Source of the DNA: Haloarcula sp. CBA1127
GTDB taxonomy: Archaea; Halobacteriota; Halobacteria; Halobacteriales; Haloarculaceae
DNA length: 64,000 nt
Assembly (NCBI RefSeq): GCF_001485575.1
Contig: NZ_BCNB01000006.1
Coordinates: 1,302,001 to 1,366,000 of the forward strand
Reading direction: 5' to 3'
Both the position numbers and the translations under genes were made by a program. Positions 7,597-10,905 of the stretch are shown in pieces. The notes beneath the pieces were generated by a model that was given only the letters and a program-made list of their open reading frames with translations, was not told the DNA's origin and did not search any database. The stretch's first letter is position 1. Each line of letters starts with the position of its first letter.

Positions 7597-8400
7597 ATGA
7601 CTGCAGGAAAACGCGCACGACTCGAACGCATCGGGACAGACGACACATACGTCATCATCCCGATGGACCACGGCATCACAATGGGGGCTGTAAAGGGCCT
7701 CAAAGACATCGAATCGACGATTGATGCGGTTACCAGCGGTGGCGCAGACGCCGTCCTTACCCAGCGTGGCATCGCCGGGCGAGTTCACCCCAACAAGAAC
7801 GACGCGGGCTATATCACGCATCTCAATGGCTCTACTACTATCGGCCCGGACGAGCAGGACAAGCGGACCACGGGAACGGTCAAGGACGCAATCCGCGCTG
7901 GGGCCGACGCCGTCTCGTTCCACATCAACGTCGGCAGCCAGTACGAACCCGAACAGATCGAAGAGCTCTCCGAGCTGACGACCGAAGCCAGCCAGTACGG
8001 CCTGCCGGTGCTGGCGATGGCCTACGCCCGCGGTCCCGACATCGACGCCGAGAACGAGGACTACAACCAGTCCGTCGGCCACGCCGTCCGACTGGCCGAG
8101 GAACTGGGCGCTGATATCGTCAAGACCGGCTACACCGGCTCCGCCGAAACGTTCCAGCACGTCGTCGAGTCCACGTCGCTGCCGGTGGTCATCGCCGGCG
8201 GCTCGAAGGGCACTGATGAGGATACCGTCCGGATGGTCCGCGGGACGATGGACGCCGGGGCCTCCGGTGTTTCCATGGGCCGCTCTATTTTCCAGCACGA
8301 CGAACCGGAGAAGATTGCGCGTGCCGTCTCCGCCGTCGTCCACGACGACGCCACCACCGAGGAAGCGCTCCGCGAGGCCGGACTGGCTGTCGAGGCCTAA
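7597..8400 (+). CDS. 2-amino-3,7-dideoxy-D-threo-hept-6-ulosonate (ADTH) synthase
   Basis: Class I aldolase-fold enzyme that starts the archaeal alternative to the DAHP route. It makes ADTH from aspartate semialdehyde and a deoxy-ketohexose phosphate. Motifs: IPMDHGITMG near the N-terminus, FHINVGSQYE, a conserved Tyr in LAMAYARG, the Schiff-base Lys in DIVKTGYTG, then VVIAGGSKGTDEDTV and GVSMGRSIFQH at the phosphate site. It lies 26 bases after trpA on the same strand and is probably co-transcribed. Its product feeds the dehydroquinate synthase II encoded at 9739. It was formerly annotated as a fructose-bisphosphate aldolase; the context argues for the aromatic role. Confidence 0.9.
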   Translation: MTAGKRARLERIGTDDTYVIIPMDHGITMGAVKGLKDIESTIDAVTSGGADAVLTQRGIAGRVHPNKNDAGYITHLNGSTTIGPDEQDKRTTGTVKDAIRAGADAVSFHINVGSQYEPEQIEELSELTTEASQYGLPVLAMAYARGPDIDAENEDYNQSVGHAVRLAEELGADIVKTGYTGSAETFQHVVESTSLPVVIAGGSKGTDEDTVRMVRGTMDAGASGVSMGRSIFQHDEPEKIARAVSAVVHDDATTEEALREAGLAVEA

Positions 8401-8684
8401 CGGCCAAACAGCGACCGCATTCTCTTATCGAGACCGTCAGTATCGTGTTCAGATGTGTCGCCACCTTGGCATAGATAATCAGTCGCGGACGACGATGTGT
8501 CCGCGGCCGAGTCAGACGCGTCAACATTTTCCGCTGGCTCAGCAACCGGTTCTGATTCGGTGTCGGTCTGGTCGGTGCCGTCCAGTACCGATGCGGTTTG
8601 GCCGTTCTCCACGGAGCCCGATGGCCGTGGCTCTGAGGCCGGAGAGTCGACGGAATCAGGCGCTTCAGCTGTGTGCCCATGTGC
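8397..8684 (-). pseudogene. In-frame C-terminal continuation of the MinD-like gene after a TAG codon
   Basis: After the TAG that ends the MinD-like frame (8685-8687) the same frame stays open for 95 more codons to 8397. It encodes an acidic Ser/Asp/Glu/Thr-rich linker (AHGHTAEAPDSVDSPASEP, then many Asp and Ser) ending DKRMRSLFGR. That end is short, basic and hydrophobic, and resembles the membrane-targeting amphipathic helix at the C-terminus of MinD proteins (family form KRLFGG). A separate gene could start at the GTG at 8612 (71 codons), but the same frame, same composition and MinD-like ending suggest one original gene split by a nonsense codon, or one read through. It overlaps the stop of the ADTH synthase gene by 4 bases. 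Confidence 0.55.
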
Positions 8685-9488
8685 CTAGTCGTCCGTTCGA
8701 TGGGGGGTTGGCACCGTGGCCTCTGGGTCGGGCGGGTCAGCTTCCGTGGGTGCATCGGCTGTGGAATCAGTCGACGCCTCCGCTGTGCCGATAAGCTGGT
8801 CCGAGATCCGCTGGTAAGCGACCGCGGCGTCGCTGTTTGGCGCGTTCTGCACAACAGGTGTGCCGCTGTCCTGTGCGTGCAGGACGGCATCGTCTTCCGG
8901 GACGTGTCCGAGTATCTCGATGTCGAGCCACGCCGAGACTTCGTCGGGGCCCGGTGATGCCCCCGTCCCGGATTTCGTGAGGATGAGGCCCCGAACCGGC
9001 GCGTCGAGTCGCTCGGCGAGCTCTTTCGTGTTCGAAACGTTCCGGACAGATGCCATCCGCGGTGTCGAAACAAGCAATACGTCGTCAGCAAGCTGGAGCG
9101 GCCGAACCGTCGCCTCGCTCAGTCCTGCCGGCGTGTCCAGCAGGACGATGTCGTGGTGCCACTGGAGGGTTTCGACGATATCGGCAAGCCGCTTGCGGTC
9201 GGTGGCCACACACCCGTCAAGCGTGGACCCGCTCGGGACGATTGCCAGGCCCGAGTCGGTTTCGTACACCGCATCCGTGACTGCCGCGTCGCCAGTGAGC
9301 ACGTCGTGAAGCGTGGCGTCAACGTCGACCTCGAGAAAACCGGTGAGGTTTGCCGTTGAGGGGGCCACCTCCACAACGACAGTCGAGTATCCGGCTGTTT
9401 CCAAGAGGGCCCCGAGGTTGATGCTAGCTGTCGTTTTTCCAACCCCACCTTTGGCCCCGGTGACCGCGTAAACACGGTTAGTAACCAT
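8685..9488 (-). CDS. MinD/ParA-like P-loop ATPase
   Basis: Deviant Walker-A ATPase of the MinD/ParA family, which positions division, motility or chemosensory machinery. The protein has 267 residues. The deviant Walker A KGGVGKTTASIN is at about residues 13-24 and the Walker B region is DIVLLDTPAGLSEATV. The switch I position reads VVEVAPSTANL, where many homologues have Asp (DxDxxxxN). The C-terminal 35 residues are an acidic, Pro/Thr-rich linker that stops abruptly at TDD-TAG. The same frame continues downstream (8397-8684) into a putative membrane-targeting tail, so this protein may be truncated and soluble. An AT-rich promoter region lies at 9489-9600. Confidence 0.85.
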   Translation of the reverse strand: MVTNRVYAVTGAKGGVGKTTASINLGALLETAGYSTVVVEVAPSTANLTGFLEVDVDATLHDVLTGDAAVTDAVYETDSGLAIVPSGSTLDGCVATDRKRLADIVETLQWHHDIVLLDTPAGLSEATVRPLQLADDVLLVSTPRMASVRNVSNTKELAERLDAPVRGLILTKSGTGASPGPDEVSAWLDIEILGHVPEDDAVLHAQDSGTPVVQNAPNSDAAVAYQRISDQLIGTAEASTDSTADAPTEADPPDPEATVPTPHRTDD

Positions 9489-9738
9489 CTCTAGCTGGAA
9501 CGTAGTATGCAGTTATCCAGTTAGTACAACTCATTGATAAGTCTGCTGGCCGACATTTAATTACGGCGGCTGTGAGCAAATAAATAACAATCGCAGTGGT
9601 ACCAGTCTCGGCTACAGGAAATCAAACAGTTCTCTCGTTCGCCAGACACAGAGCACCGCTCCCGGTTGCCTGTCTGGCATTCGATAGACCGACCCGGGTT
9701 CCGCCACGTTCAAGCCCCGCCGTTGCGGACGTGGGCGT
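9489..9738. other. Divergent intergenic region
   Basis: About 250 bases between the MinD-like gene (minus) and the dehydroquinate synthase gene (plus). The left half (9500-9600) is AT-rich (tttaatta, aataaataac) and presumably holds the minus-strand promoter. A TTCAAG box near 9708, about 30 bases before the ATG at 9739, fits a plus-strand promoter. No convincing small gene is seen. Confidence 0.4.
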
Positions 9739-10905
9739 ATGACTCGAAGCGTCTGGCTCAAAGCCGACAGCGAGGTCGGCGATTGGGAGACACGGAAACG
9801 CCGGATAACCGCCGGTATCGAGGCCGGCGTCGACTGGGTACTGGTCGATGAAGAAGACGTTGACCGCGTCTCGGAACTGGGTGAAATAAACATCGCCGCG
9901 TTCACCAACGGCGACGTCCACGTAATGGAGGCCGAGGCAGAGGACTCAGAGGCCGATGCGACCATCGTCGGGAAAGACGGTGAAGGCGACGGGACGGTCG
10001 ACCTCCCGTCGGATTTCTCCGGCTCTGCGGACCTCTCGACGCTGCGGCAGAACGGGGCCGCCCCTGACGGCGGCTACGTCCGCATCTTCGACGAAGACTA
10101 CGAGGCCTTCGCCGAGGCGGTCGCCGCCGAAGCCGACTTCACGATCGTCATCGGCGAGAACTGGCAGATCATTCCGCTCGAAAACCTCATCGCCCGCGTC
10201 GGCGAGGAGACGGACCTCATCGCCGGCGTTCGGACCGCCGAGGACGCCCGGACGGCCTACGAGACGCTGGAGTTGGGGGCCGACGGCGTCCTGCTGGACA
10301 CCGACGAGGTCGACGAAATCCGCAAGACAGTGGAAGTCCGCGACGAGATGGGTCGGGAGTCACTCGATCTGGAGTACGCTGAGGTCACCGCTATCGAGCA
10401 GACCGGCTCCGCCGACCGCGTCTGCATCGACACGGGCAGCCTGATGGAACACGATGAGGGGATGCTCGTCGGGTCGATGGCTCGCGGCCTCTTTTTCGTC
10501 CACGCTGAGACGGCTGAATCTCCCTACGTCGCAAGCAGGCCGTTCCGCGTCAACGCCGGCGCAGTCCACGCCTACGTCCGGACGCCTGACGGCGGGACGA
10601 AGTATCTCTCGGAACTCCAGTCCGGCGACGAGGTCCAGATAGTCGATGCCGATGGACGCACCCGAGAGGCCATCGTCGGCCGCGCGAAAATCGAGAAGCG
10701 CCCGATGTTCCGCGTGCAGGCTGAAACTGAAGACGGCGACCGAATCGAGACGCTGCTCCAGAACGCCGAGACGATCAAGGTCCACACTCGGGACGGGCGA
10801 ACCGCCGTCACGAACCTCGAACCGGGCGACGAAATCCTCATTCACCACGAGGACACGGCGACGCACTTCGGCGAACGGATCGAAGAGAGCATCATCGAGA
10901 AGTAG
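9739..10905 (+). CDS. 3-dehydroquinate synthase II (archaeal type)
   Basis: Oxidative deaminating cyclase that turns ADTH into 3-dehydroquinate with NAD+, the second step of the archaeal alternative shikimate entry. The protein has 388 residues. It starts MTRSVWLKADSEVGDWE, with the conserved VLVDEEDVDRVSELGEI. Later come TIVIGENWQIIPLENLIA, the GADGVLLDTDEVDEI segment, MARGLFFVHAET and RPFRVNAGAVHAYV. It is unrelated to bacterial AroB. Together with the gene at 7597 and the dehydratase at 11442, the window supplies the first three steps of dehydroshikimate formation next to trpCBA. Confidence 0.93.
   Translation: MTRSVWLKADSEVGDWETRKRRITAGIEAGVDWVLVDEEDVDRVSELGEINIAAFTNGDVHVMEAEAEDSEADATIVGKDGEGDGTVDLPSDFSGSADLSTLRQNGAAPDGGYVRIFDEDYEAFAEAVAAEADFTIVIGENWQIIPLENLIARVGEETDLIAGVRTAEDARTAYETLELGADGVLLDTDEVDEIRKTVEVRDEMGRESLDLEYAEVTAIEQTGSADRVCIDTGSLMEHDEGMLVGSMARGLFFVHAETAESPYVASRPFRVNAGAVHAYVRTPDGGTKYLSELQSGDEVQIVDADGRTREAIVGRAKIEKRPMFRVQAETEDGDRIETLLQNAETIKVHTRDGRTAVTNLEPGDEILIHHEDTATHFGERIEESIIEK

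Follow-up and report, generated by a model that had tools for sequence, protein, structure and literature searches.

The window analyzed here is a 64,000-nucleotide stretch of the Haloarcula sp. CBA1127 genome (contig NZ_BCNB01000006.1). Translation of its minus strand reveals a frame running from 9488 to 8397 that is interrupted by one in-frame TAG at 8687-8685. Counted from the ATG at 9488 (-), 267 codons precede this stop; 95 open codons follow it, ending DGLDKRMRSLFGR, and are closed by a TAG stop at 8399-8397. The initial annotation had described two pieces sharing one frame with a single stop between them, and the translation agrees. Residues 1-236 (8781-9488, minus strand, as are all parts of this gene) make up a MinD/ParA-type P-loop ATPase core recognized by hmmscan. 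They are followed by an acidic, Ser/Thr-rich linker, part of which precedes the stop (8688-8780) and part of which lies past it (8433-8684). Comparison with orthologues places a former C-terminal membrane-targeting-like motif, LDKRMRSLFGR, at 8400-8432 and the ancestral TAG stop at 8397-8399. Two conserved plus-strand genes, both of the aromatic pathway, flank the frame: a DhnA-type aldolase-like gene at 7597-8400, which we take to be a probable 2-amino-3,7-dideoxy-D-threo-hept-6-ulosonate synthase, and a second neighbor at 9739-10905, presumably a 3-dehydroquinate synthase II. The stop codons of the MinD-like and aldolase genes overlap tail to tail in the window (8397-8400), an arrangement also seen in 11 of 11 near relatives (L074-L084).

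The best NCBIfam match of the window protein is archaeal MinD (TIGR01969; E 1.6e-53, 181.5 bits), although this score lies under the curated cut-off of 201.75 bits, as does that of the intact orthologue in the relative G014 (191.5 bits; G numbers denote genomes of the comparison). Pfam matches are to the P-loop families ParA, CbiA and AAA_31. The best solved relatives in the PDB are the archaeal MinD structures 1hyq (A. fulgidus MinD-1) and 1ion and 1g3q (Pyrococcus), which belong to the same P-loop ATPase family. The window family differs from them in its long acidic linker, its C-terminal SLFG[FL] and its sub-cut-off score, and the window copy also in having lost its switch I Asp. The ATPase core is shared with bacterial MinD (E. 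coli 3q9l, B. subtilis), and intact orthologues carry an Asp equivalent to the bacterial D40. However, bacterial MinD has no long disordered linker, and in the window copy the D40 equivalent is replaced by Ala and the reading frame stops short of the tail. Identity of the window family to other MinD/ParA-like places, three in the window genome and in G014, is only 32-38%. Nothing on this Haloarcula MinD family was found in the literature.

A nonsense mutation was among the origins that the initial annotation had proposed for the TAG, to be judged by aligning orthologues over the stop region and seeing whether they too stop there. An ortholog search over 32 genus genomes, the window genome included, recovered close syntenic orthologues in 22 of the 31 others, in a slot between the convergent aldolase-like gene and the 3-dehydroquinate-synthase-II-like gene. 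Their open frames are longer, and none of the 22 has a stop in the matched stretch. With the TAG masked as X, the window frame is 59% identical to G014 over residues 1-362 (tblastn E about 1e-140). Codon-by-codon alignment across the TAG (8685-8687), feasible for three relatives, shows a Gln codon in each: CAA in G014, CAG in G027 and CAA in G004. The DNA around the site is otherwise nearly identical in G014, the window reading CATCGAACGGACGAC TAG GCACATGGGC and G014 CATCGAACGGACGAC CAA GCACATGGGC; one C-to-T change turns CAG into TAG. Since 22 orthologues are without a stop and the three alignable relatives have Gln, the TAG is a nonsense mutation private to the window genome among the genomes compared. 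The frame past the TAG exceeds chance because it aligns to the linker and tail of intact orthologues, including the DNA around the stop. That the break is recent, as also proposed, agrees with the presence of the TAG in the window genome only; the supporting argument from linker composition is weak because linker sequence and length vary freely among orthologues.

What, then, lies beyond the stop? The C-terminus of bacterial MinD is a short amphipathic membrane helix with a KRLFGG-like sequence. The 11 nearest relatives of the window copy encode proteins of 405-470 residues that end ..RM[RW][SA]LFG[FL], and an SLFGF/SLFGL-like C-terminus, with Phe or Leu as its last residue, is present in 20 of the 22 orthologues. 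The window tail beyond the TAG, ..RMRSLFGR, corresponds to this SLFG[F/L] motif, with Arg as the final residue. As the motif lies past the TAG, the C-terminal membrane-targeting-like helix is missing from the translated product. The stop therefore cuts off the acidic linker together with a putative MinD-like membrane-targeting motif, and the proposal that a MinD-type membrane tail has been lost is upheld by orthologues that read through into it. Hydrophobic moment gave no separation: values for the last 11 residues are 0.20-0.56 in motif-bearing orthologues and 0.53 in the window frame (E. coli MinD, last 10 residues, 0.45). The window linker past the stop is shorter than those of near relatives, through in-frame deletions. 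Linker omega lies at about 0.3-0.55 in all pairwise comparisons, stop or no stop, and a selection model on the post-TAG linker consequently has no power.

The two orthologues that depart from the SLFG[F/L] ending are G018 and G006. In G018 (L133, G018:C1:3291700-3296900) a linker frameshift makes the frame Arg-rich and extends it to a length of about 584 codons; VARRVLSLFSF, the tail motif, remains in a different frame, so that the membrane-type tail has been lost here independently. G006 (L124, G006:C1:2597500-2602000) has GGVGRTT vs GGVGKTT in its Walker A and an altered tail (FGRQLQDVFDR), differs at 21 sites that are otherwise invariant, and is another degenerate or changed copy.

Programmed readthrough or recoding of the TAG, another of the proposed origins, would yield a minor full-length, membrane-anchored form. 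In its favor, the 95 codons past the TAG are open and orthologue-like, and the deletions among them preserve the frame. However, the window genome has no PylS above cut-off, only weak sub-cut-off matches to the PylS model, and no CUA anticodon occurs among its 43 typed tRNAs (44 by Rfam; one more, apparently with an intron, is untyped). Most orthologues, and the window frame itself, also use TAG as their ordinary stop; no other genome compared has it at this site, and the final residue of the tail is now Arg. Recoding by pyrrolysine or a suppressor tRNA was rejected on the PylS and tRNA results; with TAG a normal orthologue stop as well, programmed readthrough is unsupported and scarcely credible. 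On haloarchaeal stop readthrough, nothing pertinent by title or abstract was found in the literature. A second gene starting at GTG 8612, which had also been suggested, was rejected: this GTG is AAG in the closest relative, G014, and the orthologue region belongs to one uninterrupted frame, not to an independent gene in the tail region. The 71-codon GTG ORF is a product of chance.

The core upstream of the stop, rightly identified in the initial annotation as a MinD-like ATPase, shows a degeneration of its own that had been missed. Pairwise dN/dS of the core is 0.09-0.11 among intact relatives and 0.21-0.29 for pairs including the window copy. In a codon model fitted by maximum likelihood (our own implementation, with F3x4 frequencies on fixed trees), core omega on the window branch is 0.468 vs 0.064 elsewhere with the MinD tree (2dlnL 45.2) and 0.241 vs 0.066 with the neighbor-gene topology (2dlnL 25.9); the sister of the window copy differs between the trees (G027 or G014), and the effect size shifts accordingly. 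Core omega was not raised on five other terminal branches tested, and omission of switch I still left the window branch at 0.419 (2dlnL 35.5). The neighboring genes, used as controls, show no acceleration on the window branch in the same model (aldolase, 0.026 vs 0.020; dehydroquinate synthase, 0.023 vs 0.014; neither significant). At 179 sites invariant among the 11 near relatives the window copy has 32 changes, and any other 0-7. The window core is under relaxed selection, with omega at 0.24-0.47 vs about 0.065, though below 1; omega=1 on this branch is rejected with both trees (2dlnL 5.2 with the MinD tree, 32.9 with the neighbor tree). An omega below 1 means that constraint acted over much of the branch or is partly kept: it was either lost part-way along, or remains in part, and the data, with the window species sampled by one strain, do not give its order relative to the TAG. 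The 80 bases upstream of the gene (9489-9568; 71-72% identity to G027/G014, 70-89% for other relatives) are not clearly worse than those of other relatives, and promoter decay is without support.

Some catalytic motifs have survived this relaxation. Aligned with the 22 orthologues, the deviant Walker A (AKGGVGKTT, 9455-9429) is intact and conforms to KGGxGKT, the Walker B/switch II motif LLDTPAG is present and the start codon is intact, so that a truncated protein is possibly still made. Switch I (9339-9368), by comparison, carries the clearest lesion of the core, having gone from MDLAMANLVD to VAPSTANLTG. Residue 42, an Asp in 22 of 22 orthologues, is Ala in the window copy (codon 9365-9363), and the register from alignments to 1hyq and 3q9l makes it the equivalent of E. 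coli MinD D40. The deposited 3q9l sequence has Ala at the D40 position, and we take this chain to be an engineered D40A mutant of E. coli MinD. In B. subtilis, MinD D40A is trapped as a dimer and behaves like a minD knockout, as does the membrane-binding mutant I260E (PMC13246001). The window copy unites the equivalents of the D40A and membrane-binding defects, and judged by homology it is probably inactive. These changes also bear on the TAG itself. Its presence in one genome only would suit a gene that is otherwise intact and was misread in sequencing or assembly, but a single error would not cause the relaxed constraint through the core, the altered last codon and the switch I changes. Given such independent core lesions and relaxed selection, a base-call error is unlikely to be the whole story, and an intact gene misread at one codon is very improbable.

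Losses at this locus extend beyond the window genome. The MinD-like gene is missing from the slot in the near relatives G001 and G007, with no MinD match left; the intergenic gap measures 189 bp and 231 bp, respectively, vs 1454-1665 bp where near relatives have kept the gene intact; the flanking genes are 98-99% identical to those of the window. At the deletion scars (L072 and L073), G001 retains part of the ancestral upstream region beside the dehydroquinate synthase gene and G007 only about 39 bp. Six more distant genus members are also without a MinD match in the slot, and G028, which lies outside the slot comparison, gave no close match in the genus-wide search. In G025 (L121, G025:C13:308000-313000) the slot measures about 2.2 kb and gives no MinD match, so other sequence separates the flanking genes there. 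Across an order-wide sample, 21 of 195 genomes yielded matches with E no higher than 1e-55. Because the gene has been lost repeatedly within one genus, with a frameshifted copy in G018 and a changed Walker A in G006 besides, its function is dispensable there.

A core that is losing constraint and deletion of the gene in close relatives together point to ordinary gene loss caught partway. We therefore regard the window gene as an early pseudogene in the course of loss, with a probability of roughly 0.87; it combines an inactivating stop unique against its orthologues with relaxed selection (omega below 1). In intact species, ATP-driven dimerization and the tethered tail would drive the protein through cycles of membrane binding and release that position some cargo, as for other MinD proteins. 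For the window copy, translation of the mRNA would end at codon 267, and the resulting protein would lack the membrane anchor, would probably not hydrolyze ATP and hence would have no MinD-type function. The window product, if any, is most likely truncated, cytosolic and non-hydrolysing.

Could this 267-residue product instead be maintained as a soluble ATPase whose role has changed and is now cytosolic, with the switch I cluster as the mark of that change? Omega below 1 on the window branch allows it, Walker A and DTPAG are intact, the upstream region shows no clear decay, and MinD2 of H. volcanii functions although it is diffuse (PMC11588486). However, the invariant switch I Asp is lost, the excess of changes covers the whole core and its signal persists without switch I, and the gene is repeatedly lost in the genus; a maintained protein is unlikely. 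A two-step route to a MinD that is soluble and no longer hydrolyzes ATP, whereby loss of the switch I Asp locked an ATP dimer on the membrane and the later stop released a cytosolic, ATP-locked dimer, is conceivable by analogy with D40A in B. subtilis, which locks the dimer in this way, but quite improbable. Were it true, the freed dimer might do no harm or might act as a decoy that is still partly constrained.

H. volcanii encodes four MinD paralogues, MinD1-MinD4 (HVO_0225, HVO_0595, HVO_1634 and HVO_0322); growth and division proceed without them while motility and shape are affected, and MinD2 and MinD4 position archaella and chemosensory arrays (PMC11588486). The window family is likewise a haloarchaeal MinD paralogue and is not equated with any of the four. 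That H. volcanii grows and divides without its MinD proteins is in keeping with a gene open to loss. HaloLex includes among its disrupted haloarchaeal genes a category (b), in which a point mutation creates an in-frame stop and the remnant stays readable (PMC4500146). The window case is essentially alike, and adds a measured relaxation upstream of the stop. The single break is itself an ordinary nonsense mutation. What matters is the family: within one genus, a MinD-family gene of haloarchaea that encodes a long linker and a membrane-type tail is being lost repeatedly, and its intact and defective species offer a natural comparison.
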